64,000 bases of DNA from Pyrenula massariospora (taxonomy: Eukaryota > Ascomycota > Eurotiomycetes > Pyrenulales > Pyrenulaceae): the NCBI GenBank assembly GCA_021030905.1, contig JAGFMI010000014.1, positions 558,001 to 622,000 of the forward strand, read 5' to 3'. Under the pieces are notes generated by a model. The model saw nothing but the letters and a program-made list of their open reading frames with translations, had not been told where the DNA came from and did no database searches. The translations under genes were made by a program, and so were the position numbers. Shown here piece after piece: positions 5,101-59,413 of the stretch (the stretch's first letter is position 1; the number at the start of each line of letters is the position of its first letter).

Positions 5101-8100
5101 ACTTCAAGTCCTTCAAATTTGACAATTCCAGTAACCCCAAATTTATTGCTCCTGACCTTGGAGGCAGTGGTGGAGTTGGTCGCGCTACCACTTGGTCCTA
5201 TGTAAATGTCTAGTGCAGCCTGCTTCATCACGATACCCGTGTCTGCAACGGTGTAGTCTCCGATCCGGCCATGAATGGCAATCCCCTCTTTACTAAATGA
5301 GAGCGTGGCGCTTGCAGTGCTTGTGCCATTAAACGACACACTGCCGGAGAGAGTGATACCCAGCGGACTATCCGGCCGGGACGAGAACTGGATGTACATG
5401 TCCTCGAATTTGAGATCATTGCTTTGTGTGTCAGAGACAAGCTGGTCTCCAACCAGTTCGTGATAGAGATCACAGAGCTCTGCATAGGTGAGAGTGCCGA
5501 GCTGAGCTTCCAGAAAGCTCTCAGCTAGACCTTGTCAATGAAATCCTAGCAGTGAATGTTTGAACACATACCTTTTGAATATTGTCCTGATAAGTAGATA
5601 CTTGTCTTGTTCAAAGTCGTGAATGCAGATATTTGGATGCGGAAGGAATCCTTGAAGTTCTTGGCGTCGAACGTAGTCTCAAGTACTACACCGCGGATCT
5701 GTCGATGATATGGGTTCTTAGCAGCCGAATTAGTCGTTGCTCACTTCGAAAAAGACTTACTGTCAGGTTCCTGATCCCAAAAACATTAGTCCAGTCTTCA
5801 CTCGACAAGAACATACTGATCTGGTAAGACTTCTTCATCTTGTACAGACAATAGCGGACCTGAAGAGGTACGGTCGTACCAGGAATGCCGCCGATCTCAA
5901 GCATACCGAAGAAGCTGTACCCGAAAGCCCATCGTTTGTCATTGCCCGGCGCCGAAACTCGAGATGTAGCTATCTCAACACCGATCGTTGTGATGTGAAG
6001 GATGTCTCCGAGAGAGACCTTAATATCACTGATTGAACCTTGTAGAGAAAGACCGGTGACCACAGGCGGTTCGCTCCAGTCTCTCTCGCGTGACACATAG
6101 GCAGCGACATCTAAGCCGTCTGACAAGAGATTTCCATCCCCGAACACTTCTCTTAAGGCATCGCCGACAGGTTGGAGTGTGCGTTCAAACTTGATTTTTG
6201 CCTCGATTCTGAGGCCGGGATGGTGGACATTTTCATCCTCGTCCTCAGAATATACGAATGCGAGATCACTGATTGGTACCTGGCCCATGACAGAGTCTTG
6301 AACGTACGGGAACAGGAGGCTTATCGGACCTTGACTGAAGGATGAGAAATTAGGAACTGCCTTCTCGTGGACCGGTACATCGTCACTATCGCTCTGTATT
6401 CGAGAGATCTGAGCCGAAAGCTGAGGAATGCCGAAGAGTGCGCTCGTCGTGCCGGCCACTATAAATTGTGGAAGGGTCATGGTGCCAGCCTTTCCCGACT
6501 TCTCACCAATGGCCTCCTTGAGCTGTGGAATATTCGTCAACGGCTCGCCACTCACTATTACGTCAGCTCCTTGCTCAGAAGAAAGCAGCAGGAGCGGTTT
6601 CCCTGTCGTGGTAGTGGCATCTGCAGAAAGTGGCGCAACGAGCATGCCTTGTGACATTTCGGGCATATTTACAGTGCGGATGTCGACGGGCAACTCGGCC
6701 ATTACATCCTTTGTTGTCATCACTATAATCCGAGGATCTTCTAGAGTGACCCCACCTAGAAACATGCAATTTGGCTGCATTGGGGAAGATTCCGTCATGG
6801 TTGCGCGAGAGAATCGCGCCTGGTTAGAAATGTTGTCCGCAAGCCTCATGCTTCGAAGCTCACTGTGCTGTTCAGAAGCTGCCGGAATTTCCAAGTTTTG
6901 AGAGATGCTTTCAGCGACTTCAGTATCACTGTTTGTTGAGATATTTGACGCCAAGTCTTCTACCTGAACTTGTTTTGGGATGTCGACATCATGGGACACG
7001 TTCCAGAAATCTTGAAATGGCTCCAATTTATTGAGATCCATGATCTGAGCCAGCGATCCAACCCTTTCAAACTGCGGATTGCTGATCAGATGGCCTTCTA
7101 AAGCAGCCATATCATCAAGCATGGGATTGTTTGCCAGTCGAATCTTATCGCCTATGTCAATGAATGAAGAGTCTTCAATTTTCGTGTCCGTAAAAAAATC
7201 ATCTGCTGTTTTGGAGCCATCCACAGACATAGAGCTCGCCAGCAAGGCATCCATAGCGACGGAAGCACTTGACTGAAGTCCATCATCTGACACAACTTGT
7301 GTCAGCCGCATCAAATTAGTAGCTTCATCATCTAGCCGCACCTCGGCCGGTTGCAATGGGTTAGCAGTGAGGCTTAACTCAAGACCTTCTTTTGCAACGA
7401 TAGTCTCCAACTCATACTCACTGTCAGCATTCTGTTGAACGACTCGACTGTGTAGAGAATGATTGTTCAGATGACTAAAGTCAAACGCATCGTTTGAATT
7501 GGGCTCAATCGTCATCTTGCCCGAGTCGGTAGGGGTAACGGTGAGGGCTGACTTCTGGTTGTCGTAGGCCTCTTGAATCAAATAGCTATCAACAAGACTC
7601 TCACCTTGCGTGAAGAATAGCCGTGTGAAGGGGTAGAATTCTGTAACGAGCTGCATTTTAGCTCCATTGAAGACTTGAGATGGCTTATCCATGTCGATAT
7701 TGTACTCTATTGCGAAGCAGATCCAGGGGCAGATCTCCCAAGCTGCCACCCACCAAGTTTGATTATTGAACAGAGTCTTCTCGTCTACCCACGTTCCTGT
7801 TCCAACCTTTTTGAACTGAAGAACTTCGAGATCTTTGTTGACCCTAATAGCGAGCTTTCCGGTCGGATTTTCTTTGGGGTTTGATTTTAGCCTCAAAGTC
7901 ATCCCGGCAGTTGAGACCTTGGATTTGAAAGCTCTTAACTCGAACTCTTTGGTATATAGCTCTTGCCACGCCTTCTCATATCTGTAGCCGTCATTAGTCA
8001 TGCAGGATGAAGCTTCACGCTACCCTTTTTGGAACGATGAAGGTGGACTAACCGTAGCATCACAGTATTCGTCTCTGACGTCCCCAACACCATATTGACT

Positions 8101-9526
8101 TTATTCTGACTTGTATAGAACGCTTCGTTCTCTTCGATAAGCCCACCAAACGCAAACCCTGCTAAATGAAGCCACTTTCAAAAGCAGGTCGGTCAATAAG
8201 TAATCCGCAACCCGGAAAACAAAAAAGCTTACTTCTGCAATATGTGCAGCTTTAGAACGGTCATTGGGATCCCATTTAAAGTCGTCTGTAGCCAGCTATT
8301 GGCAATCTTAGCAAAGACGGCTCTTGACTCACACAACGTTGAAGTAGCTAAGGTTACCTTTGGAGCCGAAATCTCCATAACTTGCCCTTGTGATGGCATT
8401 CCCTTGGACTTCCGTTTCCCAATAGCAGCCATGATGCGCGTGGCTGATAGAGTGACAAGAAGATCCTCTTGAGCGTCCTGCACGTGGGCACCATGGGCAT
8501 TGAGGTGCTCTACGCTTTGGTCATTCGCTGGCGTTGGCCACATGAGTCTCTGGAGCTTTCGCAGTTGCTTTCTCATTGTCGAAGTGTCCGGCGGGAAAGG
8601 CCGGTCCTTATGAGTGTCAAGGTATTTTCCAAGATCAACGCGAGAAATATATGTTGAGTAATGTTTGAAAGGATTGTCTGAAAGCTGTGTTGAGTGGTGA
8701 GTAAACAAACGCAGCACTAGCCTAGATGAGCAAGACATGCCTTGAAATAGTCATTTACATTGGTGGGGAATTCAAACATGTAATTCGTTTCGACCTTGTT
8801 CAATGCTTTGACGGCCGCGAAGGCAGCTTTCACCTGACCAAAACTTACGCCATTTACCTTCTTACCATCCTCAAGATTTGCGTTATCAAAGGGTCGGATA
8901 ATCAAAGTCATTTCGTTGTGTTTCGGGTTAAGAGCACGCATCGCCACAAAATCAATTCCACAAGCATGAACTGAGCTCGACTTCTTGAAGATGTCTGTCC
9001 AGACTTTTGTATCCATGAAAGCCATGTTTTGCTTCCTGATCTCTAAGAAGTGGTAGTGACCGCTAGATCTTCGAGCTGGGAAGAGATAACCACCTCGCAA
9101 TGCCTCTCTGTCCCGTTTCCAATTCCTATCACTTTTGCCCGGCGTGCTTGAAATTCTCTCCCAGGCTTCTAAGAACTCTTCCCAGCTCAACTCCTTGCTG
9201 CATTTGCCAGAGTACGATGCAAGAGGTTTTTGTGCGGCGTCATCGAGGCGGCTCTTGTTCCAGGGGTAGCCCTTTGGTTGTTGAGCTGCCTCGATGAACT
9301 TCTTGGGAACATAAATATCATCCAAAAAAGTGAAGAAAGACCGGAATTTGTCACTGAATTTGACATACGAATCTTTCTCTTCCCGATATTCATTCCAGAT
9401 CTTTAACAGCTCAACCGAGGTCATATTGGCACTGGGAAGGGCGTCATGGCCGTCCACAAGTTCATACATCACTCGGTTAGTGCCTTTATCGTCAATTATT
9501 TTGCTTTTCCAGGCAACCTTGGCCAT
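2105..9526 (-). CDS. Giant multi-exon protein (~2255 aa) of unknown function
   Basis: Thirteen exons join in frame: 9526-8737, 8677-8333, 8285-8233, 8174-8053, 7981-5761, 5716-5572, 5530-4868, 4810-4668, 4618-4449, 4380-4270, 4224-3041, 2980-2898, 2842-2105. All 12 introns are 41-71 nt with GT-AG ends, and the phases give an unbroken 6768-nt CDS ending in TAG. The N-terminal ~480 residues are soluble and Trp/Lys-rich. A long Ser/Thr/Asp-rich middle follows (exon 5, ~740 aa). Then come ~800 residues of alternating hydrophobic strands with Gly-rich turns (for example GITLSGSVSF, GGIQVFGKTAKFEASVG), which suggest stacked beta-sandwich or lipid-binding-like modules. The last ~430 residues carry long Lys/Glu heptad stretches (around 3050-3480 and 2400-2900) typical of coiled coils. 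There is no signal peptide or clear membrane helix. I do not recognise the family. The beta blocks recall large fungal and bacterial proteins annotated DUF6603, but this is only an impression. Confidence 0.8.
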
Positions 9527-11933
9527 AGTGAAACAGGGAAGAGATTATGTAGAGCAAAATAGTCGCGTTTGCAGTTGGAAGTGAAGATGCTAGTTTTTGA
9601 GGTATCCGGCTTCTGCCATGCTGGAGCAAGTTGCCTTCAATTGTCTTACCAACTACCTCTGTTCGAGCTTTAAGAGCTCGGACTGTTCTTTTTTGGGTAC
9701 AAAGCAAAGCGCAACTTGCCTCGATATTTAAGGTTGCTGTCTTACAGCGGCCACAGTAATGCTGCAGTCACTTATTTCGAGAGTTCCGTGGGCTTAAGGG
9801 TGCATGAACATATGTGATGCGCGAAGAAACTTTGCATGCAATAACCAGATTAGGCCAAACGCGTTCTCTGATCTGCAATTTGGGCGGCGGGCTGAAGCAT
9901 GCCAAGCTTTGGTAAGCAACGTGGCTGCAGAAATCTGCAGCAAGACACCTCTTGCACGGCCCAGGGCTGCCCAAATATGGGTCTAGACTTTAAATATCAT
10001 GATTAAGAAGCGAGGAAGCGAAAGCGGGGCTATTTTCAAGAAAATTAAAGTTAACGCATTGGTCCTGCCATGATTTCAAATAAGTCTTGTGTACTCGCAG
10101 GATGGGGTATTTCTTTCAAACGTTTTTTAGGGATCAACGGATAGCACGGTCTCTGAAGACTTCATCGAAAAGCTACTCCCTCGCTGTGGTCAGCAGTCCA
10201 ATCCTAGATCAGTTCTTATGATGGATAATCTACGCTGCGCTATAGCCCAAATCCAATGGCGATGTATTTTTAGCTTGAGTTAAAGCGTCCTATCTGCCAT
10301 TCCGTTCGCTGGACCTTGTTTGTATTGATTAAGTTCACAAAAGCGCAAACATTTTTAAAAACGATGCTAAAATGTTCACGAGAGCAGTGCTAGGAAGAAG
10401 TTAATTTCTTTCGAAAAGATGTGTAAACATTGTTGACGCACGAGTAGAGAGTGCAAAAGAACATTTCACGCACGCAAGTACACTGTCTCATTTGCTTGGA
10501 CAAAGGCCTTGACGAACTGAGATATGAGAGGGATGTGCAAGCGAACGAATGTTAGGGCATGCAGACAGTAGTAGTAGACTGATGAGCTGCAGCGGAATTA
10601 TAAGCGACGACCCAGTATTTCCAGTGGACGCTAGGGCGTAAAAGCACCCTGTTCCACAAGGAGCAGCTAGGCATCTTCCAACTAGTTTCTTTGATACAGA
10701 AATGACAAGTCATGTTGAGCAAAGGGATTCACCCACTTACATGAGGTATGCATATGGCCGCACAGTCCGATTTCGTAAGTTGCATTCAATCAAATGTCAA
10801 ATTACTAAATTGTGCATCGAATCAGCCGGACAACCGGTGACAGCAAAAGGCGTAAGCTTAGTGCGATAACAAACTGCCCGAGCAGGGAAATGGCTTCTGG
10901 CAGCTGTGGCTAGTTTTGACAAGGCAGATTTCTTGACTGAGATCAGATAGTCTCAATCATCGTGTTTTTCGGGCGATATAGCTCCTAAGCAGAAGAATTG
11001 CATCTTTCCTGTACTTATCCTAGTTCGAGCTTCACCTAATCGGACAGCCCGAGCTTTATACACTTGACATTTTGACAATATTGTTGGAGACATGTCGCAT
11101 GTACGAAAGGATCAAAGAGTGTCGGTGGGTTTTTTGTGGCGAAATAGGCTCCCGGCTAGATAGTGTCAACCTGAAAGACGTGAGAGATCCAGTGGATGTG
11201 TAAACTCAATCTTCAGAGAGTGTGCATCCCAAGTTCTCTAACAAGGAAAAGCGCTTCCTGTTTCAGCCAGCCACCGATCAATTCTGAGAGCGCATAGAAA
11301 AAAGAAATCCTTTTTGCGTTGTTCTTAAGTCCCAATAGAGTTAGGCTGCGCAGCCGCGCAGGGATCCATCCGCCGTGCCGTCCTTAGGATAATCCAGTGA
11401 CGGTGGGCATTCTCTATTGCCGAGATGCTAAGCTAAAAGTCAAGGCTGGATGGCAGCAGTCGTGGCGCCCGAAGCGGGATGTCAGAAACTGCACCTCCAT
11501 TCCGAATATTAGCCGGCAGGAGGGTACCACAACTTCTGTTGCTTCGTCTTTTCGGCTATCAAATCTTGCATCCCCTTAAGCCACTTTAGCTCATTGAACC
11601 TATACTTATCATCTTCCGACATTCGAATTTCGAAGATCGAGACCGTACGGGTTCTTACGGTAGCGAAAGTTTACCAGACTTAGCGACTGCGACAAGCTTG
11701 ACTCATATTAGCCTATTGTTGCTTGAATCAAGCTCCTTCCTGCTGAAAAGGTTTCTGCACCTACACTAGGCGGCTATCTGATTCCGACCTCGACATGTAA
11801 AGAGTAAGAGAACGCTCTGGCATTTAAATCTTCTGTCGAGATCCATTGGAGAATGTTTGCCGTATTCAGTCTTCTTATCAATGGCGAGTAAATCGGTAAT
11901 TCTTCTCACAATGGAATTGAAATTCGATGTCCC
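9527..11933. other. Gene-poor intergenic region
   Basis: About 2.4 kb upstream of the giant gene. Only short ORFs (at most about 70 codons) occur, none with a recognisable motif. The first few hundred bases should contain the promoter of the giant gene. No transposon ends, tandem repeats or tRNA were found by eye. Confidence 0.4.
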
Positions 11934-12684
11934 TTAAGGCGGGAATCTGGTGACCCTTGGCTGCATGCATTTATGGTTCGTGTTAGCTTGTACGGGGCGC
12001 TGAAAACATTCTAAAGCTGCATCTTTGTCACCAAGCATTTCTAAAAGCTTCCTGTAGAGAAGATCATGCCTTGTAAACTCCGGGGGATGTTGCAAAAGAA
12101 AATCTTTGCAAGCGTGGTGAGGCGTCGAAATAGCCAGACGAGGCTGCATGATCGCCAGATAAGGCCGCTCTGCGCAAAATTTCACCTAAAGATAAGCGTA
12201 TTGAAGGACCAGATCGACTTATACTCTTGTCGTCGATGTAGCTTTTCTACGGAGAACAGAGATAAGCCAGAGCTCGAGTTGTCGACCAGCCGAGGATTTT
12301 GAGGCTTCAATGGGGTAAGCTGTAAAACTATGCCGTCTTGCATCGTGTGAATTTTGGCGCATCTTTCTATTGTTGAGAAAGAAAGGATCGGATTTTTGCC
12401 CTTAGACTAGGACCCTTGAAAGCTGGCAATAGCTTGCCAGAATGCCGTTTCTTTTAGCACATTTCGCAATTGGAGCTTGAGCTGCCTGCGGACCGTTACT
12501 GTTTTACCGAAGATGAGCTCTGCGCTTGTGCATGTTGCCACCACAAGCTCATGTGGATTCTCAACTCCACGTACATACCGGATGCCTGATAACATTCGCT
12601 CCTGAATACTCTGGTTGTGAGGATTGGCAGTCCGCTTGAGAACAAAAATCGTCGGGGGAGTATCAGGATGTCAGCATGAGGCAA
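11934..12684 (-). pseudogene. Possible remnant or unrecognised multi-exon gene
   Basis: Three minus-strand segments read like real protein. The first is about 12655-12410 (contains NPHNQSIQERMLSGIRYVRG and then VVATCTSAELIFGKTV). The second is about 12330-12186 (contains KPQNPRLVDNSS). The third is about 12185-11934 (contains ERPYLAIMQPRLAI, then HDLLYRKLLEMLGDKDAALE). The last part has a TPR-like helical character. Segments two and three can be joined by a CTTTAG acceptor, but the donor after the first segment (GTCCTA) is weak and no start codon context is obvious. It may be an uncharacterised small gene or a decaying piece of a conserved fungal gene. The family is not recognised. Confidence 0.3.
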
Positions 12685-13063
12685 ATAGCCAGGCCAAAGT
12701 TATGCCTGTGTATATGTTACACAAAACATTGAGCATGTCGCACGATCTCTGCTGCTTGGTTTGAACAGCGATATGAGACCCTGTACTTCTTAGAAGGAAT
12801 CGTTCATTTTAGGGTTAATTGACATAACAGAGGTGTTTGACATTGAGCACTTGGCACCAGATAGCCTTACGAGGGTTAGTTTTTCCGTGCGGAGATCCTC
12901 CCCTACTGGGGAATTTTTTTGGTATCGCACACCAAAACATTGCGGGGCGGGTTTTGCGATCAGCCGCCTACTTTCTACAGCATTCCCAAAAGCCCCCATT
13001 GTCTCGGATGTTTTACCATTGAGTCAGATGACGTCTTGGCTATAACTACGAGACGAGGCAAAA

Positions 13064-14735
13064 ATGTCAATGATCACCACCACGACGTGGGTGCGCCGCG
13101 GCGTCGCCGCGCCATTTCCCAAAAAATACGACATCACCGAGGCGGAGATCGACCGAATTTCAAAACTCGCCAAGTTGCAACTCGAAGACGCAAGGGAAGC
13201 TCTAGAAGCCGCAAGAAACGAGCCTGCTGACAGCTCGGACTCCAATGAAGAGCAAGCGACGTCAAAGGCTCAGCCTAATGGCGCATCGACTGAAGGTGCA
13301 CAGGAGTAAGTGCTGCGTCTGAGTGCCAGTGTTGAAGCTGATAGCAGACAGTGACGACGATCTCAAGGAGTACAATCTCGACGACTACGACAACGATCAA
13401 GTCGATGAGGAGGGAGAATCGATGACACGATTTGGAAATGTACAATCGTTGGCGTACCATGCGCCAGATGAGGAAGACCCATATCTGACGCTGCCAGAGG
13501 GAGAAGTATCAGATGAGGAAGAGCGAGGGGAGCTTCAAATTTTGGCTACGGATAATTTATTGTTGGCAGGAAAGGTAGAAGATGAAGTTGCTCATCTCGA
13601 AGTCTATGTCTATGAGGACGAAGCCGACAATCTTTATGTCCACCACGATATAATGCTACCGGCGATACCCTTATGTACAGAGTGGATTGACGTCGCGGTG
13701 GGAAAGGATTCCAATGGCAAAGAAAAGGGTAACCTTGTGGTGATTGGCACAATGGAGCCCGAGATTGAGCTGTGGGATCTTGATGTCGTGGATAGCATGT
13801 TTCCCACTGCGATACTCGGTCAAGCTACTCAACCTCAGGAGAATGGCGTTGAAGCCAAGAAAGCAAAGAAAAAGAAGAGAGGCAAGATTAGAAAGAAAGT
13901 GAACGACAATTTCCATGTAGATGCTGTCTTGGCATTGGCCGCCAATCGACAACACCGGACTTTACTTGCATCTGGATCGGCCGACGAGACTGTGAAGCTG
14001 TGGGATCTGACTACCGGAAAATGCGCGAAGTCGTATTCTATGCACCAAGGCAAAGTTTGTGCTCTGGACTGGCATCTTACTGAATCGACTGTCCTTCTGA
14101 GCGGCAGCTATGATCGTACCGTCATCGCTACGGATATGCGAGCTCCAAAGGCAAAAGCACCGCGGTGGCCAGTTGGAAGCGACGTCGAGACTATCCGCTG
14201 GAATCCCCATGATCCGAACTGCTTTTTTGTAACAACAGACGCAGGGTTGGTTTTATATCATGATGCACGTGCAGCCGTGTCCTCTAGTTCGGTTTCGAAG
14301 CCTTTATGGACTCTGCAGGCACATGATGCGGCTGTATCATCATTTGATGTTAATTCAACGATTCCTGGCTTCCTCGTCACCGGTTCGGATGACAAAACAG
14401 TCAAGCTATGGAATGTGGAGGGTGATCGCCCGAGCATGGTCGTCTCCAGAAATCTTGAAGTAGGCAGGGTTTTCTCTGCACGGTTTGCTCCCGATGCAGA
14501 AGTCAGCTTTCGCCTCGCAGTAGCTGGAAGCAAAGGTTCCATACAAGTTTGGGACACATCGACCAATGGTGCGATCAGAAGAGCATTCGCCGAGAAGACC
14601 GGAATGCCAGATCGAGAAGTGAAAGAGAAAGTCATCCGAGCCCAGCAAGACAGCAGCGATTCTGAATCCGACGAGGACGGACACCATGGAGCTCCAATGC
14701 CGCAGGATGGTTGGGAGTCAATGGACGAAGAATGA
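13064..14735 (+). CDS. PWP1: Periodic tryptophan protein 1 homologue, WD40 ribosome-biogenesis factor
   Basis: Two exons, 13064-13305 and 13352-14735, are joined across a 46-nt intron (GTAAGT...ACAG) to give 541 aa. The N-terminus (TTTTWVRRGVAAPFPKKYDI, then EAEIDRISKLAKLQL) matches the characteristic start of Pwp1. The start may be this ATG or the one two codons later, which aligns better with the yeast protein. An acidic linker (residues ~60-150) is followed by WD40 repeats from ~150 on, such as GSADETVKLWDLTTGKC, GSYDRTV and GSDDKTVKLWNVEGD. A basic stretch KKAKKKKRGKIRKKV lies before the second repeat and probably acts in nuclear or nucleolar targeting. The C-terminus is acidic. Known role: nucleolar assembly factor for the large ribosomal subunit. 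Length fits the family. Confidence 0.93.
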
Positions 14736-18901: not shown

Positions 18902-20655
18902 ATGGGCATGATTGAACTTCTTGCCCAATTGGGCCCTATTTCTACGACGCAAAAGATCGTCTTTGGCCTTGGTGTTTTGGTCTCCTATGTGCGTTCAAGG
19001 CCATGCTAAGCCATAGAGACGCCAAAACTCTGACAGCAGGATAGTTACTCGCCGTGATCATATACCGCTTGACTTTCCACCCCCTCGCCAAATTCCCAGG
19101 GCCTTTCTTGCGGAGAATCTCCGGCTGGCCGGACTTCAATGTGACCTGCACCGGCTTCAGGCAGCTTAGCATCGATGCTTTGCATACCAAATATGGACCC
19201 GCTGTTCGAGTAGCGCCGAACTGTGTATCGATAATCGATCCTTCCATTGTGCCAGCTGTGTATGGGCCCAAATGTCGTACGAAGAAGGGCCCTTCATATC
19301 TTACTTTTTCTGCCGATGGCGCTAATAGCATCTTGAACCTCCAACATAAGGAAGATCATGGTCCACGTAGGCGGATCTGGCAGCATGGCTTCTCTGATAA
19401 AGCTCTGCGCTCGTCGGAAGTCTTCGTGGTAGAAAATGTGCGGAAGTGGATAGGTCTCCTGGACAGAAAAGCCGGTGACGGTTGGAGCGAGGAGCTTAAC
19501 ATGACAGACTGGTGCACATGGCTTACGTTCGATATCATGGGCGATTTATCTTTTGGAGAGGGCTGGAATCTGGTCGGTGACGAAACCTACCGTTGGATCC
19601 CTCCTACGATTACGGCAGCAATGCAAATGATTCACACTGTACGGTCCCTCAAACCCCTTACTCAATAACCTCCGCAATCACCACGTACTAATCCTACCAT
19701 CGTACAGATGTCACATTCTCCCTTCCGCCGCATCTTCAACATCTTCTTCCCTCTTCTCGAGTACTTCGGCGGCAAAGAGGCCAAGCAATATCTCCGCTTC
19801 AAAACCCTCTACACCGCCGCCACCAAGCGCCGCGTCGACCAGGAAGCCGAACTCGCCAAAGACCCCAACCGCCGCCTCGACCAAATGCACTGGCTGATCA
19901 CCGGCGCCGACCCCGAATCCGGCCGCAAGATCCCGCCGCTCGACCTCGAGGGCGAGTCCGGCGTCCTCATCATCGCCGGCGCCGACACCTCCGCCACCGC
20001 CATGGCCGCGCTGATCTTCTACCTCGTCCGCAACCCCGCCGTCCAGGCCCGCGCCGCCGCCGAGCTCCGCCGGGCGTTCGAGGATATCGACGAGATCAGA
20101 TCGGGCGCGAAGATGCAGAGCTGCAGGTTCTTCCTCGCCTGCGTCGACGAGGCGCTGCGCATGACGCCGAACGCGGGCGGCATGGTCCCCCGCGAAGTCC
20201 TGCCCGGCGGCCTCGACCTCACCATCGCCGGCACCCCGACGCACATCCCCGCCGGCACGGAGCTCGGGCTCACCCTGTACTCCTTCCACCACTCCCCGCT
20301 CAACCATCCGCACCCGGACGCGTTCCTGCCGGACCGCTGGATCCCCGGCAACCGCTTGTTTGGGAATGTTGACGGCCCGACGGTGAGCGCGGAGGACGTG
20401 GCGCGGTTTAGGGGCGCGTATCAGCCGTTCAGCACGGGGAGTCGGGGGTGCATTGGGAAGGCGCTCGCGCTGACGGAGTTGTGGGTTGCGGTGGGGAGGT
20501 TGGTGTATGGGTTTGAGGTGCAGGAGGTGCAGGGGTGGAGGGGGAGGGAGGGGAGGGAGTGGATGGGGAGGTTTGGGGAGGAGGAGTATCCGGTGATGGA
20601 TTGGTTTATTGCGGCGAGGGAGGGGCCGGGGGTGAGGGTGAGGAGGAGGGTGTGA
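18902..20655 (+). CDS. Cytochrome P450 monooxygenase (microsomal type)
   Basis: Three exons, 18902-18988, 19045-19638 and 19708-20655, are joined across 56- and 69-nt introns, both in phase 0, giving 542 aa, the normal length. The N-terminus has a hydrophobic anchor (~residues 15-37) followed by FHPLAKFPGP, the hinge typical of ER-bound fungal P450s. The I-helix motif AGADTSA is at ~317-323, the K-helix ExxR (EALR) at 375-378, the PERF-like DRW at ~436 and the heme loop FSTGSRGCIG at 468-477, with ligand Cys475. All key residues are present, so the enzyme should be functional. It would use NADPH-P450 reductase and O2; the substrate is unknown. From about 19790 onward base composition becomes much more GC-rich than in the first two exons. 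Confidence 0.92.
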
Positions 20656-21749
20656 TGGTGGGGAGGTGGATAGCCTAGTGTACTTTGGTTGGATGTTTTG
20701 ACATGATGTGAATTTGATGTTCTAATCCTGCTAAATTTAAAACCCTTTTCGGTGTGATACTCGTCTTTTCTCCAACACGGACCCTTTACCATCCAAAGCC
20801 TCCACCTCCTATCCCTTGCTATCCTTCCCACCTCCTTCTCCATCCTCTCCCCACGCAATCTTCCTTCTCCCAACCAATCCGCCTTTCAACCCCATCAAAT
20901 CAGCTGCGGCTTTCGACCTTCTACGTTCTACTCTGTATATTTGGATATGAGTTTTGGGAGATTGTGTTGGGGTTGAGGGGCTTGAAGTGAGCTGGGCTGG
21001 GAGTAGGGAGAAAGGAGGTTGGGTGGGTTGAGGGGGGGAAATTCGGGGAGAGGAGAAGAAAATCGTAGCGTAGCGGGTGACTCACTTGGAGGATGTGGCA
21101 GTTTGAATGGTAAAATGTTCAGGGGGTGGTGAAGCGATCAGGTTAGGGATGTGAAAGGTAGAAGCTGGGCGGCGGGGATGGAGGGGTAGAGGGATTTAGG
21201 CACAGGTTAGATGAAAGTTGTTGATTATTCAGATTGAAATAGTAGTGCATAAGAACAGGATTTTACGGTTCAGTGTTCGCATCCGTAGGTTAGAGTGAAG
21301 ATTCGTCTATCTACAGGTCTTGGGTTTTAGCTATGTATTTTTCTTGGAGCTATTGGTGTGATGACCGGAGTGGAGAAGGGAGGGAGGAAGGATAGAGGAA
21401 AGAAGCTTCCAAGGAAATGAAGATATGTCGGCATCCTGTGTCCTGAGATTCCCCGATGTCATTACTTCAGAGTCTTGATGTTGTACTGTTGGAATGACAG
21501 TAAGGCCAGCGACCTTGTATCCATGTCATAAGCACAGCGAGATGCTATTGCTTCATGCGGCGAGGGTATGAGCACTGCTTCCAATGGAAGTGAATGTTGG
21601 TGATGGTAGATATCGCTAAACTCTATATTAGTCAGAAGCGAGTAGATCCTTTTTACTACCCCATTTGGACGACACTTTTGAGCCGACTTCGAGAAATGAG
21701 CTTCGCTTAGACAGGCGCAGGCGGGCTATGGACGTAGACTGAGCGCGGA
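20656..21749. other. Convergent intergenic region
   Basis: About 1.1 kb between the P450 and the minus-strand S9C peptidase. The plus strand shows G-rich runs around 21000-21400. No ORF was accepted. Confidence 0.5.
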
Positions 21750-23981
21750 CTAGAATCCAGAATCCGGTTCTATTTTCTCCCAAGCTTCGTCATCCTCGAT
21801 GACGGCTGTATGCTTGTTGACCCAGTCGATCACCGCCTCGTGCCATCTCAATATGCTGCTCGGCTTTGACAGGAAATGGTTCTCATCGAGAAAGACGAGG
21901 AGGCGGCTTTCAACTTTGCGCATCTGCAGCACCGAGAATGCTCCAAGACCCTGTGTGAATGGCACTCGACGGTCTTTTTCTCCGACAGTAATCAGCATCG
22001 GTTTGGACCAATTCCCGGAATGCTGTGCTGGATCACACTTGTTCAGAGACATTATTAAATCTTGAGGACTGGAGTCCAAGCCACCAAAATAGAGACGAAA
22101 GGAGTCCGGCACGTCGCACCCAGCCAATCCCGGAGCGTTGAAGATTCCCGCATGGCTGACAAACGCTCTGAACCGCTTTGCCAATGGTTGCCCGGCGATC
22201 CAGTAAGCCATGTATCCTCCAAAGCTGCCTCCAAGAGCGATTGCGCGCTCGGTGTCGACGTAGTTCAAATTCTCGTCCACGTATTGCATACATGCCTCGA
22301 GGTCCTGGTATGGAACACTCGCAAAACGTCCGGACACCTTTCTCTTAAAGCGTTCGCTAACGCCGGTAGACCCTAAAAGGGTTAGAATTAGGTGTAAGAA
22401 CAGTCCAACAACGCTTACCAGAGAAATTTGGTAATATGACAACATATCCTTGTTCTGCAAAAAGTAAGGGATTCCACTGGATCGGCCAACTATCCGTCCA
22501 GGCTGCTGGTGGGCCGCCGTGAATGAACAGGCATAGGGGATATTTCTCCCCGGCTTGGAAAGACGAGGGCTTTAATACCCATGTTTGAACATCATCACCG
22601 TCGGCTCCTTTGCAGCAAAACTCGGATACTTGATCGTGAGTGAATCCATATTGCGCAAGATCGACTTCGCTCAAATTGAGCTTTTTTGATGTGCGTATAT
22701 CGTAGATGATAAACTTGCTTGGGCATATAAAACTTGAGGAGGTGAATAGAAGTCGATTGTTGGGGAGTCTGTACAAGTTGGACATGCTTATATCTCGAAT
22801 GAGAGTACGCAGCGTCGTAGGCCTACTTTCATCAACGCTGACGCTCACCAGAGTACTCCGTCCATAATATGTGGAGCAAATAAGCAGACTGTTCCCGTCA
22901 TGGGACCAAACCATTGATTCGACCTCGAGATATGCTGGTTCTCCGGTGCTTTCGTCGATGATTTCGATTTCACGGGCGCAGCGATCGTTAGTATTCATAA
23001 CATAGATCACTTTCCGGCCGTATACGTTCACTTCATCTTCGACCCTTGTGAACGCAATTCTATCGCCGCTCGTAGAAAAGGTTGGATCAAGACATTGGCC
23101 AGTGTGGGCTGGTGTTTCGATAGCTTTGGAGGGGGTTGGCTCCGCATCATCAAGGGAGGATATCGGAACGTAATACAGAGTAGATGATCGATCTCCAGGT
23201 TTATAGGGTCCAGATGGAGTGGCGGGATAGACAATGGCGGTAGATGACATAGCAAAACTCATTGGGCCGAATGGCTTTGCCTCCATCCACGGATCAAAGT
23301 CAAGGTCGGTGCCTTGGAGGATGTTGACGAGTTTGGTTGAAGAGAGGGTAAACGAGTCATGGGCTGCACTCGATCGCTGCAATTTCGCGTAGCATAGGGT
23401 AGACTTAGGATTCTCAACATATCCGTCGAATTCCTGGACAGGGAGCGATACAAACTCCTTGACTCTAGATTGCTGTGAGATCATTTGTTCTTTCGACTTT
23501 CCAATGAGGAGGAGGTTCAAAGTGTCTTCGCTCCCGCGACATACATCAAGCAGCGTATAGGATCCAGAGAGATCAACCGCTTTGTAGACGCTAAATCAAT
23601 TAGCAATGCCAATGCCGATGCCATTGTCATACCCTTTCAATCCGTCTCCCACGTCTCCAATCCAGATTTCGGTGTTTCCGTCTACGAACTTGGTCCAAGC
23701 CACCTGTGTTCCTTGGTTCGTCCATTTAAGAGTCTTGAAGGTTGGGTTTTGAGAAAGGAGCCTGGGCTGCACAGCTGCTAAGTCGATTAAGTAGAGACTA
23801 GTGGCGGTCTCGTCGGTCTTGCTTGTGTACACTGATTCAAAGAAGAATGCATGTGTACCCGCAGTATTAGGCACTAGATCAGACCTTTGTGGGAGCGAGA
23901 TGAATTGACTATGGAAACGTGTTAGCGCCAATTGCCGTCGGCGGAGGCGACGAACTTCGCAGTGAGCGTGGGGCCCGCCAT
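21750..23981 (-). CDS. Prolyl-oligopeptidase-family serine peptidase (S9C, dipeptidyl-peptidase 5-like)
   Basis: Four exons, 23981-23956, 23908-23633, 23590-22419 and 22372-21750, are joined across introns of 47, 42 and 46 nt to give 698 aa. The first exon is only 26 nt, and its intron has a CTAAC branch point. The N-terminal ~430 residues form the beta-propeller-like region (NPTFKTLKWTNQG, DPTFSTSGDRIAF). The C-terminal alpha/beta hydrolase carries the nucleophile in GGSFGG (Ser~541), Asp~625 in GEKDRRVPF and His~657 in ENHFL. Unlike secreted fungal DPP5 there is no signal peptide, so a cytosolic enzyme is likely. The family removes dipeptides or acylated residues from peptide N-termini. It lies 1.1 kb from a P450 and 4.5 kb from a UstYa-like gene. 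Confidence 0.88.
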
Positions 23982-24888
23982 AACGCTATGATAGTCCGAT
24001 GAAGTCGAACTGTTCTTTACCACAATCTCCCATCATAAGACTGTTCAAAACATTTGGGGCCAGGCTCATTATGAATTGTGTGCCGTCCTTAGCTTGCCTG
24101 AATGTATCATTGGCCGACCGATTTTCATCACATCGCTGTTTATGCCTGTAGTGAACGATTTAGCCGCCGGAGCCTTGTTGACTCCCGGTCTAGCTGAAGA
24201 TCGCCTTGCCATAGGAACGATATCCTGGCTGCTTTCCGATTGATCTTTCTCTATGACCAGTGACGCAAGCTACAGTGTCTAATGTGTCCATAATCCCAGC
24301 AAACCTTCTGCTACGCCGCCAACTTGCATTAGGTTCCCAACTTTCACCGCGCCGCAAGCTTGCATTGTGTCTTTGTCAGCGTCTGTCGGATAGGTCTGTC
24401 TGGGTACCCCGGGACAACGGCTAGCCCTTTATCTACCTTACTACGATAGAATACATAGATTCTCTGGCTCAGGAGAATATTTCCGTCCCAAATTCAGCAA
24501 GACGCAAACGATCTTCGGCGGCACAGTTCAGCTGATGAATAGCACCAGGCAGCAATTGCCAAAATAGAGACGATAAGCAATCTGCGTGTCGACTTTCTTG
24601 CTGGTCTTTGGAGACTAGCAGCGGGACAATCTTCCTAGCTAGCGGTGCAGAACGCGCCTTGCTGTGCCACATCGATTGCTACAGGTTGTCCGAGTCTGAA
24701 TTGCAGCCCGGACAGCAAATGCCGATCCTGCCCCTCCATCAGCCCTCCAAGGTTGTAATAGAGTTGTTTCCCCGGACTGGCGAGGATACTCTGTTCCACA
24801 ACATATATCATACTCTAGTGCTGGGACATGTTTATTGTCCTACGCTACTACTGTGCGCTGAAAGATTCACCTCAACTCAACTCACATC
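23982..24888. other. Divergent intergenic region
   Basis: About 0.9 kb between the S9C peptidase start (minus) and the PTH11-like gene start (plus); it probably contains both promoters. No ORF is accepted. Confidence 0.5.
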
Positions 24889-26015
24889 ATGGCACTATCA
24901 CTCAATTCAGTTCTCGTACGACCTTTTGCTCTATAATAGTCTGAAGCTAATCAATTAACTAGGCTGTCAGCTGGACGATGAATGCGTTAGCTATTCTCTT
25001 CAGCATTGGGCGATACGTCATCCGGCTAAAAATGCTTGATGGATTCCACTGGGACGACCTCTCGCATTTTCTTGCATTGCTGCTGATGACGATTTCAACG
25101 GCAGTGATTACAGGTCTAGCTGACCTTATTCGCTCGGTGGAGCTATTTTTGCACCACAAATCTACGACCAAACCAGATTTGCATAAATACCTGCAAGCAA
25201 ATGTTTATGTAACAATTTTCGGGTTTAGTTGTCTTTGGGCCGTCAAAGTCACCTTTCTTATCCTTTATCGTATGTTGTTTGGGATCTCAAAACGCTTTCG
25301 AAAAGCTTGGTGGGCGGTCGCTTTATTTGTTTTTCTAAGCTATTGGGCTATCATCGGTGTTTTATTGACACAATGTGGCGGATCCGCTTCACACCTCCTT
25401 GACATAGGTTGGTTCTAAACGATTCTTCTAGTATTACTGTGGGCTAAAGAAGCCTTAGAGGTCTGCAGCACCCCAGCTTCGATCAGATTCCAGCGGAAGC
25501 AGTTTATCATTACCAGCGCTCTGAATATCGCCACAGACTTTGCAAGTACGTTTCGATCTCTCTAATATAGCTCCTTGTGACTCAAGATTCTAGTTCTCGG
25601 ACTACCCCTTCCTATGCTACGCAGTTTACAGGTAAAGAGAAAAGAAAAAATCGGCCTTGGAATTATTTTCAGCCTTGCTCTTGCTGTGGTTGGTTTCGAT
25701 GCTTTGCGTTTAGGCGAGTCATTGAAGGGAACTGGACACGATGATAACACACTGTGGGGTCAACTGGAGAGTAGCATCGCAATCATCGTCTCGGCCTTGC
25801 CAACTTACAACGTTTTACTGCACCGTGCCAAGAAGGCGAACGAATATCCCGGAGACTCTAAAAGTCGTCTCGCGTTTTCAGAGCATTCGAAAGCTACTGG
25901 TAGCAGCAAAAACAGTGTCAGCAAAGATAGTGTCAGCAAAGACAGTGTGACCGTCCACAGCTATCGGGAAGATATACCACTAAGAACTGTTCACGACAAT
26001 CAACACGACGTCTAG
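24889..26015 (+). CDS. PTH11-like / rhodopsin-domain integral membrane protein
   Basis: Four exons, 24889-24915, 24963-25407, 25459-25545 and 25594-26015, join in frame (introns 47, 51 and 48 nt) to give 326 aa. The second intron removes an in-frame TAA and has a GGGCTAAAG branch point. Several hydrophobic helices are visible: NALAILFSIGRYVI, LLLMTISTAVITGLADL, VYVTIFGFSCLWAV, WAVALFVFLSYWAIIG, QFIITSALNIATDFA, GLGIIFSLALAVVG and SSIAIIVSALPTY. This fits a seven-helix protein. The family pattern of helix 5-6 (SIRFQRKQFIITSALNIATD) and the proline-rich ILGLPLPML match the fungal rhodopsin/PTH11-like superfamily. The hydrophilic tail contains two tandem SVSKD repeats. The family is implicated in sensing surfaces or ligands; the ligand is unknown. 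Confidence 0.82.
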
Positions 26016-26643
26016 GGCAGAGTTAGAGAGCCTATTTCTCAGAGCAGAACAAGCATTTACGTGACAAATCAGTTGGGACTGCTTAAGTGACTGGGATGCA
26101 AGATGTTTATACAAGTTGTCCAAAGGCAAAGTGCGCCTCAACCTGGTCACTATTAGAGAGCTGACAGACTCGGATACATAATCGTCTTTCTTTCCCCTGG
26201 ATGGAGGAGGATAGAAATTGGGGCGATTCACCTCTATGTCAAAAGCTAGCATTGATGTTCATTCACGGCAGTAATTATGACTTTTAACACTCGCATACGC
26301 CGTGAAATTATAACGCTCGTGTCTTAAGACAGACTATCCCCAAGTGATAGCTGACACAATATATCCAAAAAGCTCCACTTTTCCACAGATGTCTTCTTCT
26401 CAGCCAAAAGTTAGCCTCTTATTGTCTTGTTTGCGCTGAAAATGAACATGGACAATTATTACTTTCACAAATACAGAGAGAATCAAGCACTTATAGATCA
26501 ACAATGATTCTTTTGAATGAGTGAGTGACTACTTGGTATTATCTCTAAATTCTGGTACAAATTTCGGTGAATGCGGCCGAACACTGAAACATTCAAAATC
26601 CCCATTCCCTGAGGCAAAGGTCCACCTACTCCTCCTCAGTTTC
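26016..26643. other. Intergenic, no gene seen
   Basis: Convergent ~0.6 kb between the PTH11-like gene and the short secreted peptide gene. AT-rich; no ORF accepted. Confidence 0.5.
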
Positions 26644-26891
26644 TTAATCCGTATCGTCGAGCTCATAGCTAGCCCAAGCGATCTCTTTTCCTAATTAGCT
26701 AGACCCAGACAAAGGACTCATCAGGTATGATATACCATTTGGGGTAGGACTATTTGCGTCGGTCACGTCTACTTCTGTTAGCTTTTATTCGTCGAATGGA
26801 TGGGTAAGTGGTCACCTTGAGGAATTGCTAGAGCGGTAGTCTGGACGAGAAGGAGGGAGGCGAAGACGAGAAAGATCTTGATGTATTGCAT
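26644..26891 (-). CDS. Short secreted peptide (~53 aa) with signal peptide; possible precursor peptide
   Basis: This gene is too short for usual ORF finding. Exons 26891-26816, 26774-26736 and 26690-26644 join in frame to 53 aa. Intron 1 (41 nt, GTGACC...GCTAACAG) and intron 2 (45 nt, GTATAT...GCTAATTAG) both have near-ideal branch points. If intron 2 is retained the frame stops after 51 aa. The first ~22 residues (MQYIKIFLVFASLLLVQTTA) are a clear signal peptide ending at a LALA-type site. The mature part of ~30 residues is acidic, has no cysteine and ends in a segment with Trp and Tyr (KEIAWASYELDD). A TATA-like CTATAAG lies at 26953-26947, about 55 nt upstream of the ATG. It is divergent from the UstYa-like gene 1.6 kb away. 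It could be a small effector, a signalling peptide or a natural-product precursor; function unknown. Confidence 0.5.
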
Positions 26892-26946
26892 GATGAACGT
26901 GATGATGATGCTAATGGCAAGACTGCTTTGTGGTACCAGAAGGATG

Positions 26947-26953
26947 CTTATAG
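26947..26953 (-). promoter_or_regulatory. TATA-like box of the short secreted peptide gene
   Basis: CTATAAG on the minus strand about 55 nt before the ATG at 26891, a typical spacing for a short fungal leader. Confidence 0.4.
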
Positions 26954-28520
26954 ACTGCTAGTAGAGTTAGGCTTCTGCAGGTGATCAGGCTGTTCGATCT
27001 TTCACCATTTTATAAGGCACAATGGTAAGCTACGTAGACAGGATGGGGGCCTTGCTTTTCAACTTGAATTCTCAAAGTCTTCGTCAAGGCAGCTTCTTGC
27101 TCAGTGGGCTAAAAGCTCAGTAAGCCTTCGACACCTAGCGTGAAGCTAAATTCCAATCGGAAGCTGACGTCAAGATTGTTTCAGATGTATTGCGAATGGA
27201 TGTTGCAGGTGACAGGAATCGCCCTGGAGTCGCCATCGGACTAAGGAGTTCGTGCCACTGATCGTGGGGCAGCCGTTCCTTTAGAAATGTTTTAACAACC
27301 AATCGAAAGCTGATAAAGGATCTACATAGGGAAAAGCATAATCACCCATGCGAGTAAGTATGTGCCAAAGGCGGACATCTTTCTAAGCTTTAGGAAGGAG
27401 GTCGTAGGGGTTACGCGGACCAGCTCTCCAATAGATCGAGGAGACTAATCTCACGTATTGAGCGATAGACTCGCGGTCTCGAGCGTCCTGAAGTCACATC
27501 ACACAGTATTGGTAAGTCTAGTCAAAGAATTGCCTATCATTGGGTGACTTTAAAGCGGCGCAGATGTAAATGTCGTAAAAGAGGAAGCTATACTTTAGAT
27601 TCTTAGCGGCTCTTGCCGCTGTGAAAAGGGATGATGACGCTTCCGATCCTTAGTTGACGACGGAGTATGGTGAGGCTCTAACTACCGGACCGTTACCCTC
27701 TTAGCGCCAGGTGCCGCAACAGATATGAACTCACAACCAGGTGGATAATTCAAGCTTTAATGGCTTCACGGGTGGCTGCTGAAGTTTCCCAGTTCAACGT
27801 TGGCGAATCAATGCATGAGATACTATCGTAGGTGCGAAAGATTCTTAAGTTTTTCTTGACATCGGCCCCCAAACATGTTAGGAGCTTTCGCTAGCATGAC
27901 AAGGCGGAATTCTTCACCCTAATTCTCCAACGACAGCAGCTGTGCCACAGCGGCGCATCCCCTTCAGCTGCGGCACAACCCTGTGTAGCTTGAGGAATCG
28001 TTCGGTCTGGCCATCCACTGCTTGGTAACTCGTCCGCCGCAAATCAGGCTATGTCGTGATTGCGTCAACCTTCCATGAACATCAATCGTCATTCCTACCA
28101 AGCTTTCCGCTCCAACCGGCTCATGCCTATTGGTGTTTCCCGTTGGTGGCAACCCATGTTCACTAGGTGTCAACTGACGTAGTGATTCCCATTGAGCTTC
28201 AAAGTGAGTTAGTTGGTTCATTGCTCATATTCGGCAAGGGGCCTTATTTGAAGTACGGATCACAAACGGTCAGGCTTTGAGTTCCTACAAGGATGGGGCG
28301 AAGGCGGCATCTGTTGCTATGAAGGCGCCTAATATGAGCTATGGTACCTTGGCCTTTACATAACTTGTGTTGAGGTTTAAGGACCTTCAGGACAATACTC
28401 TGCCTCGGACCATGGATTTTATACCTACCGATTCGGACTCGATCAAACCATGAACACCTCCAAGGCTCTTGCTTCAAAAACAGGGCACAGCCTTCGGAAC
28501 AACATCAGGTATAGTACGTC
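26954..28520. other. Divergent intergenic region
   Basis: About 1.6 kb between the short peptide gene (minus) and the UstYa-like gene (plus). An 85-codon minus frame at 27964-28221 has no domain or signal peptide and is not accepted. No repeat structure was recognised. Confidence 0.4.
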
Positions 28521-29324
28521 ATGTCAAGAATTCTAGAATTGGAAGCCCAAAAGCCTCTGCTGGAGTCCTATCCCGCATCACTTGCGTCGGCCACGGACTC
28601 GGACTCACCACAGTCTAGACAAGCCTCGAATCAAGGACGACGCTGGTGGCTAGCCCACGCTGTGCTTGTCCTCACAGCTGTCGGTCTAAGTATATACAAT
28701 CTATATGTCATGTTCACGGCACCTTTGGGCAATGCGCCACTACAAGCGACATTTTCGCCTGCTCTCGCCGAACTAGGAGAATACTCTCGCACCGTACGCT
28801 TCAACGGTTCAGTCTTCTCCGATTCACCATTCAAGGGCGACCCCCTCGAGCCAGAAGTGCATAATGCATGGGCCTCCGTGATTCACTACGGCATATTTAG
28901 CATCTCAGAAGATACCATACAGAAGATTGGAGCCTCAAAAGACTCCGTCCAACTCCCACTAGACGACGGAGGTGGCTACATGGCAGTAATGGAAGTCTTC
29001 CACCAACTCCACTGCCTTCGATCTCTACTGGAAGCTACATACCCGACGCAAAACGATCTCGCAAGAACAAACCTGACTTATCGCCAACACCTTGACCACT
29101 GCGCCGATATTCTACGCCAGAAATTGATGTGCGACGGCGACCTGGGGATGGTGTCCTACAACTGGGTCAAGCATCTGAGCCATCCCACGCCGAACTTTAA
29201 TACAGTGCACCAGTGTCGCGACTTTGACGCCATTTATCGGTGGGCCGCAGAGCATGCGGTCCGGGGTCCGGGAGAGCGGTTCGAGAAACCGGTGGATGCT
29301 GTGCAGCTTGACGATTTCCCGTAG
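28521..29324 (+). CDS. UstYa-like (DUF3328) oxidase
   Basis: An intronless CDS of 267 aa, the usual length. There is a cytosolic N-terminus of ~42 residues, one membrane helix (~43-66, LAHAVLVLTAVGLSIYNLYV) and a luminal domain. The two family HxxHC motifs are present as HQLHC (161-165) and HLDHC (190-194), and the C-terminal QCRDF block is at 231-235. UstYa proteins are known from the ustiloxin, asperipin, phomopsin and cyclochlorotine pathways, where they catalyse oxidative cyclisation, hydroxylation or chlorination of peptides in the secretory pathway; the HxxHC motifs are thought to bind the metal. The helix orientation here would place the catalytic part in the ER/Golgi lumen. A short secreted peptide gene lies divergently upstream and a second convergently 350 bp downstream. 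Confidence 0.9.
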   Translation: MSRILELEAQKPLLESYPASLASATDSDSPQSRQASNQGRRWWLAHAVLVLTAVGLSIYNLYVMFTAPLGNAPLQATFSPALAELGEYSRTVRFNGSVFSDSPFKGDPLEPEVHNAWASVIHYGIFSISEDTIQKIGASKDSVQLPLDDGGGYMAVMEVFHQLHCLRSLLEATYPTQNDLARTNLTYRQHLDHCADILRQKLMCDGDLGMVSYNWVKHLSHPTPNFNTVHQCRDFDAIYRWAAEHAVRGPGERFEKPVDAVQLDDFP

Positions 29325-29674
29325 TGGTTTGGTGGGCACGTGTATGTGTTTGTATCTCTTGGAACAAGAGTGCTTTCGAGCTCATGCAGATGTGATAGGC
29401 ATTTCACACTACTCCATATAAGCAAGAATATTTCCAACTCATATGCCCTGGTCCGTTGGAGCAGCAATGTATGGACTCTGACAGCAGATGTAGGAGTGTG
29501 GGATAGCTTTGTGCGAAAGGACCTTCTTACCCCGAAGAAACTTTCAATCCAACATTTTGTCGACAACCCATCGATCTCAACATTCCGTTAACCCCCTCTC
29601 CTCCCCTCTCTTTCCCCGTCCCCTCACCCACCTCCCATCTTCCCCTTCCCTCCCCCCCCAATCCCCCAAACCCC

Positions 29675-29936
29675 TCAAGAATCACACCCGCAAGTCTTCC
29701 GCATCCCAGTGCACCCCTCACAGTCCTTCTACAATCACCACCTATCGTCAGCAAGCCTGCCACGCCACAAACCTAACGGGGAAAAAGGGTCGACTTACGC
29801 CGCACTCGATGCACCAATCGTAACCACCAACACTCTGGCGCTCCTCCAGCACGGCCGCCTTTTTGGGGACCGGGTCCGCGAGGACGGTGGTGAAGAGGAG
29901 GGTGAAAAGGGTTAGGGCTAGGGAGGTGGAACGCAT
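29675..29936 (-). CDS. Small cysteine-rich secreted protein (~63 aa)
   Basis: Two exons, 29936-29799 and 29728-29675, are joined by a 70-nt intron with a consensus GTAAGT donor and TGTAG acceptor (phase 0). Without splicing the frame runs into an unrelated tail. The ATG at 29936 is chosen because a signal peptide follows at once (MRSTSLALTLFTLLFTTVLA, cleavage after ADP or LA). A charged pro-segment (PVPKKAAVLEERQ) leads to a ~30-residue tail with six cysteines in the pattern C-x2-C-x3-C-x2-C-x6-C-x-C (positions ~42, 45, 49, 52, 59, 61). Six cysteines in a tiny secreted protein is typical of fungal effectors or antimicrobial-type peptides, but the pattern matches no family I can name. It converges on the UstYa-like gene. 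Confidence 0.6.
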
Positions 29937-58789: not shown

Positions 58790-59413
58790 AGCGGGTGGGA
58801 TAGACCAAAATTCCAGTGGTCTCTCAAGCTCGTTAATACAAACGTCGAAACCTAGAGCAACTCGAGCCTTCATTCACTCGACGAACCGATTGCTTTTCTT
58901 CTCCACCTCCACAGACGAGATCTCCAGCCACGCGGCCCACTTGGCATCTCCGCTTCCTGACATCATGCTCTTTCAGGCTTAGCGGTAGCCGAGCAATTGG
59001 TCCGCTCTGCATCTTCTCCAGAAAAGCCACACAACAGCTTCCAGGATCCAGCACATCCTATCGGCCCTTCTCACCGCTCGCCTCAATCGCCTCGTTTTCT
59101 CGCTTTCGACGCACCCTGAGGATGGCGGCTTGGTCGAAAACGGATTCCAGAGCTCTGGGTCTGCGGGGAAGGTCCTGTCTAGCTCTTCTAGTGCTTGAAG
59201 AGTACTGCTGTCGGGACTTCTCGCCCGGGTACCTTGCGTCATGGATGCTCGATGACGCTCAATTGAACGTAAAGCAGTGAGCTGAGGATGGTGTTCTTCT
59301 GCTACATATTCCGGGTGTCTCCCGAAGGTATAGGCAACGCTTCGTGGTAAAGCTCTACTTTCTTCTTTGTTGGTCGATATGAAATGCCTTATCCATCTCC
59401 TGTTTGCGGCCAT
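58790..59413 (-). pseudogene. Possible decayed ORF antisense to invertase start
   Basis: A 144-codon minus frame from 59413 overlaps the start of the GH32 gene and ends at 58979. Below it, another frame reads SGSGDAKWAAWLEISSVEVE and then, after one TGA, MKARVALGFDVCINELERP. The protein-like text interrupted by stops suggests a decayed gene, but no family is recognised and part of it may be chance antisense coding. Confidence 0.2.

Follow-up and report, generated by a model that had tools for sequence, protein, structure and literature searches.

In dikaritin biosynthesis the precursor peptide enters the secretory pathway, UstYa proteins oxidise and often crosslink it, for example at tyrosine, and peptidases release the core. 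The pathways for ustiloxin, phomopsin and asperipin-2a combine a membrane-anchored UstYa (DUF3328) protein, which carries two HxxHC motifs, with an adjoining gene for a secreted ribosomal peptide. The same route through the secretory pathway, UstYa oxidation and core release is described for dikaritin-type precursors in the part of PMC7329392 drawn on here, in which the Kex2-processed repeat proteins (KEPs) that occur with DUF3328 genes are defined by their repeats and Kex2 sites. In the portion of a second study used here, lichen UstY clusters are described without a repeated precursor, and a single core peptide is named as a possibility (PMC12048977). The candidate pair that we describe below, a UstYa gene and a short peptide gene, resembles the dikaritin pathways in its membrane-anchored oxidase with two HxxHC motifs and in the adjoining gene for a secreted peptide, but differs from them in having one short mature stretch and neither repeated cores nor Kex2 sites, and in that a Pfam scan of 15 ORFs of the window revealed no tyrosinase or methyltransferase. 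With the KEPs, as defined in that part of PMC7329392, the peptide shares its signal peptide and its position near a DUF3328 gene, and its own genome contains KEP-type loci, whereas the peptide itself has no repeats and no Kex2 sites. The lichen clusters are alike in that their UstY genes have no repeat-type precursor nearby; compared with the portion of PMC12048977 used, it is only here that a short two-exon peptide architecture is named and its position tested.

The window, that is the whole 64-kb stretch of DNA analysed, corresponds to C5:558001-622000 of a 37.8 Mb fungal genome; it also contains a GH32 enzyme (PF00251) at positions 59334-61142. An earlier note had pointed out six genes within 11 kb of it, namely a cytochrome P450, an S9-family peptidase, a PTH11-like receptor, a UstYa-like protein and two short peptides, and Pfam profiles and gene models confirmed all six as sequence features. 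The UstYa-family (DUF3328) oxidase gene (28521-29324, plus strand) is a single exon encoding 267 aa, and its product matches PF11807 with an E value of 4.7e-50 and 170.9 bits against a curated cut-off of 25, which places it in the family. It carries the motifs HQLHC and HLDHC, whose residues H161, H164, C165, H190, H193 and C194 are invariant across 40 sequences (the window protein and 39 of the 47 homologues found; the eight left out were mostly short). The aligned homologues are 29-46% identical to the window protein and single matches reach 52-54% over half its length, while within the examined part of its own genome the best match is 35%. The predicted model (mean pLDDT 82) contains a long N-terminal helix (36-66) that is hydrophobic by reading, and the protein is accordingly predicted to have one N-terminal membrane helix; no solved structure was similar to the model at a meaningful score. 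Its role as a peptide oxidase is putative.

Peptide 1, the proposed partner, is encoded on the minus strand (26891-26695). Its first exon (26816-26891, ATG at 26891) encodes a clear signal peptide, MQYIKIFLVFASLLLVQTTALA, followed by IPQ, and 12 of its 25 codons end in C; by our own heuristic, the only score applied, this signal peptide ranks top across 18-31 kb. In the best model a phase-1 intron of 47 nt (26815-26769), with a branch-point-like GCTAAC, leads to a second exon (26695-26768) that encodes DVTDANSPTPNGISYLMSPLSGSS, the proposed single core region, giving a peptide of 49 aa. The donor GTGACC is weak and the 3' end of the gene is ambiguous: a 41-nt intron would yield 51 aa, with exon 2 starting EVDVTDAN, and the unspliced frame 37 aa. 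Both short signal-peptide ORFs of the earlier note were thus recovered, but its length of about 53 aa for this one was not reproduced by any of the three models. Neither a homologue nor a paralogue in its own genome was found for peptide 1. Its 49- and 51-aa models contain no K or R, and hence no KR or RR site for Kex2, after the signal peptide, and by reading neither peptide 1 nor peptide 2 shows repeated core sequences, in agreement with what had been noted before. Two scans of the 64-kb window found no Kex2-repeat precursor. Peptide 2 (29936-29675, minus strand, 63 aa, six Cys) has a clean two-exon model, in which exon 1 (29799-29936) encodes a signal peptide, a pro-region ending in LEER and the start of the Cys-rich part, a consensus phase-0 intron of 70 nt (GTAAGT...TTGTAG) follows, and exon 2 (29675-29728) encodes KDCEGCTGMRKTCGCDS. 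It has no homologue, no paralogue in the genome and no Pfam match.

The remaining UstYa genes of the genome provided a positive control. We counted 82 exon matches, which were collapsed by hand to about 59 entries and 44 loci, and took ten other loci, each flanked by some 10 kb in both directions; together with the window and four loci linked to PTH11-like genes (L033-L036) these make up 15 well-covered regions. A formal scan detected ORFs of the repeat and Kex2 type in five of the 15, at 1.0-1.9 kb from the UstYa gene, and none elsewhere in the 15, which comprise the entire 64-kb window as well. Looser criteria added two loci, L019L020 with three ADDAN repeats and, by eye, L033 with WFKR/LWRKR repeats. 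This fungus therefore has classical dikaritin-type precursor genes, at a predictable place beside UstYa. A textbook Kex2-repeat precursor with KR-separated DSDAATLWDSDGVSE units lies 1.0 kb from a UstYa gene in L013L014 (joined 7829-8494; C32, ~495.3-496.0 kb), and repeat precursors with EKRPHIYAEYIREAEP and SPEDASWANTKAR units lie beside UstYa genes in L029L030 (joined 10174-10569; C32, ~1137.5-1137.9 kb) and L023L024 (joined 5922-6371; C28, ~1843 kb), respectively. L017L018 (joined 11979-13175; C15, ~286-287 kb) holds a large HHQGK-repeat ORF 1.4 kb from UstYa, with a signal-like ORF (11776) just upstream, and this may be an unusual multi-core precursor. A signal-peptide ORF with an EKR site, incomplete at the edge of the region (L043, 1-121 minus; C13, ~657 kb), may be a further precursor adjoining a UstYa gene.

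A second, shorter kind of gene also recurs near UstYa. In the gaps between UstYa and PTH11-like genes that were viewed first (the window and L033-L036, the latter chosen for their PTH11 linkage before the short-peptide idea arose), exactly one above-threshold signal-peptide-like ORF was present in four of five; all four start with MQ, and the L033 gap has none. These short peptides, 46-58 aa overall in their two-exon gene models, follow a common plan of signal peptide, proline, phase-1 intron, short and mostly acidic stretch and C-terminal end. When 20 UstYa regions (310 kb) were scanned formally for this plan, eight matches fell no more than 3.5 kb from UstYa and not one lay beyond that distance, although both zones offered a comparable exposure outside large ORFs (85.5 kb near versus 83.6 kb far). 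L036 and L015L016 are among the eight because the branch-point rule had been loosened to let them in after their models were known, and the eight are not independent of them; the stricter rule gave six near and none far. One match, in L040, falls within a transporter region and appears spurious, leaving seven loci, the window among them. ORFs of this plan are rare in null sequence (none in three Markov resamplings of the 310 kb, one in the reversed sequence), and the other two intron phases gave two and two near matches against one and none far. The short peptides lie 0.36-1.6 kb from UstYa, which is the same slot as that of the repeat precursors, and the two types do not coincide: the short type occurs in six of the eight well-covered regions without a repeat precursor (window included) and in none of the seven with one, counting L019L020 and L033 among the seven. 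This post hoc contrast has a P value of 0.006, or 0.04 if only the five repeat loci of the formal scan are counted. In the 11 regions that were not picked for PTH11 linkage the near-to-far ratio is three to zero (P 0.07). Five one-sided gaps (L037-L041), taken after the idea had been formed, contained one convincing peptide (L039), the spurious one of L040 and three times none, and L043 and L044, taken later still, read by eye and kept outside the counts, showed no short-type peptide. We regard the recurrence of short peptides beside UstYa as suggestive, not decisive.

Part of this pattern belongs to one UstYa subfamily. For the L035 UstYa exon, the six best matches in the genome, its self-match counted (E below 1e-17), each have a PF20684 gene no more than 5 kb away; the loci are C32:382-386k, C7:848-853k, C33:607-611k, C1:1287-1290k, C29:2300-2305k and C18:136-140k. 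A short peptide is present at three of the six (L035, L036, L039) and a repeat-type precursor at one (L033); L038 and L040 showed no convincing candidate within the gap covered. The L035 and L039/L042 cassettes are duplicates, with two UstYa exons 63-65% identical, the third (N-terminal) one 35%, and PTH11 exons 60% and 69% identical. Their peptides have diverged, yet share LVPLVAIGH and LAPMLFVGH, respectively, near the C-terminus, and since UstYa, receptor-like gene and peptide core were duplicated together, the peptide travels with UstYa in this cassette, which is the strongest indication we have that a peptide of this kind goes with UstYa. It is possible that the PF20684-linked UstYa loci are peptide-plus-receptor cassettes. 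Viewed from the PF20684 side the link is looser: of the 16 best matches, seven have a UstYa entry no more than 10 kb away. The UstYa and PTH11-like genes of the window stand outside this co-duplicated subfamily: the window PTH11-like gene gave no match below 1e-6, and by tblastx none below 1e-4, to those of L033-L036 and L039, and its best paralogue is at C1:169791. For the window, the cassette argument is therefore one by analogy.

How much of the window's neighbourhood belongs together can be judged from the other three genes. The P450 (18902-20655, plus strand, ATG at 18902) has PF00067 matches in both large exons and contains FSTGSRGCIG, which we take to be the heme-loop sequence. The S9 prolyl-oligopeptidase-family peptidase (21750-23981, minus strand, PF00326 in the last exon) encodes 698 aa once three GT-AG introns are removed, and the PTH11-like (Fung_rhodopsin) membrane protein (~24889-26015, plus strand, partial splice model) matches PF20684 in two exons. 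The best paralogues of the last two lie side by side on C1, at 166513-168561 for the S9 protein (48%) and at 169791-170237 for the PTH11-like exon (54%), and C1:166513-170643 is a copy of the window's S9/PTH11-like pair in the same divergent order. Among the matches listed, no UstYa lies within 100 kb of that block, and a stretch of 2.3 kb examined downstream of the PTH11-like gene there yielded no convincing counterpart of the peptide 1 gene (top heuristic score 2.3). The S9 and PTH11-like genes are hence most readily understood as a duplicated pair of their own, apparently outside the UstYa/peptide unit. A single RiPP cluster of all six genes, with the P450 and S9 peptidase in tailoring and processing and the PTH11-like protein as receptor, would fit their packing within 11 kb, and PF20684 genes do lie near 13 of the 44 UstYa loci against 2.9 expected, among the matches listed. 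Yet the window's PTH11-like gene is not of the UstYa-linked subfamily, the S9/PTH11 pair recurs on C1 without UstYa, and the peptidase shows no signal peptide by eye, whereas the substrate would be expected inside the secretory pathway. Among the matches listed, an S9 gene lies within 10 kb of UstYa at one of the 44 loci, the window itself (0.26 expected), and P450 genes, with 92 of the 262 candidates scored, lie near at least four (2.2 expected) and are not clearly enriched. The six-gene grouping of the earlier note, and with it the place of the P450 and the S9 peptidase in the pathway, is thus not supported, and we consider a single cluster very improbable; the P450 and peptide 2 are left unassigned. 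Peptide 2 as the substrate, with cleavage of its pro-region behind EER and oxidation in YDWCIECG, is improbable too, if slightly less so. Its gene model is clean, with a consensus intron, and 350 bp separate its end from the 3' end of UstYa; the clustering of its six Cys in 20 residues nevertheless suggests a disulfide-bonded peptide, it has no homologue, and reading of the other UstYa loci examined, made without a Cys-pattern search, noticed no Cys-rich counterpart.

The most serious competitor is a chance neighbourhood, in which the substrate of UstYa is made elsewhere, as a different peptide or by a non-ribosomal route, and the peptide 1 gene either encodes a small secreted peptide unrelated to UstYa or is an ORF that is not expressed. 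UstYa genes are numerous in this genome, peptide 1 has neither homologues nor paralogues and a weak intron, two of the ten other loci with both flanks (L021L022 and L027L028) show neither precursor type, and only one of the five gaps taken later held a convincing short peptide; we place this account not far short of an even chance. It sits poorly with how seldom such ORFs turn up in null sequence or at a distance from UstYa, and with the fact that short peptides occupy the slot of the repeat precursors. On the grounds of position and architecture we propose instead, tentatively and appreciably below an even chance, that the real unit is the UstYa gene (28521-29324) together with peptide 1 as a single-core, Kex2-free candidate substrate. 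A RiPP pair of UstYa and peptide 1, with the wider six-gene cluster unsupported, is plausible, and the suggestion that a short peptide might serve UstYa is upheld in this narrower form, as the architecture of a UstYa gene with a non-repeat peptide is seen again at some further UstYa loci of this genome.

In the proposed pair, peptide 1 would be made with its signal peptide and enter the secretory pathway, where the membrane-anchored UstYa would modify it oxidatively, probably at the sole tyrosine after the signal peptide, in NGISYLMSPLSGSS. If the 49- or 51-aa model holds, release by Kex2 is excluded because no K or R follows the signal peptide, and the peptide would be released without Kex2 cutting as a single product, either the mature peptide in full or a trimmed version, in contrast to the multi-core precursors known from ustiloxin-type pathways. 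The expression of peptide 1, its role as substrate and the residue changed are what we infer here. Generalised, the pattern would make short, non-repetitive, Kex2-free two-exon secreted precursors, in which a phase-1 intron follows the signal peptide and each gives one product, a second and so far overlooked class of UstYa substrates, carried in one lineage as a three-gene cassette with a PTH11-like receptor protein that could sense the peptide; we hold this to be unlikely as matters stand. The genome-wide pattern bears on the question of what UstYa proteins act on where no repeat precursor is nearby, and the proposed class, if true, could explain part of these genes. Repeat-seeking mining would then miss a class of fungal peptide products, and if short single-core peptides do fill part of the gap, orphan UstYa genes would become searchable and testable.
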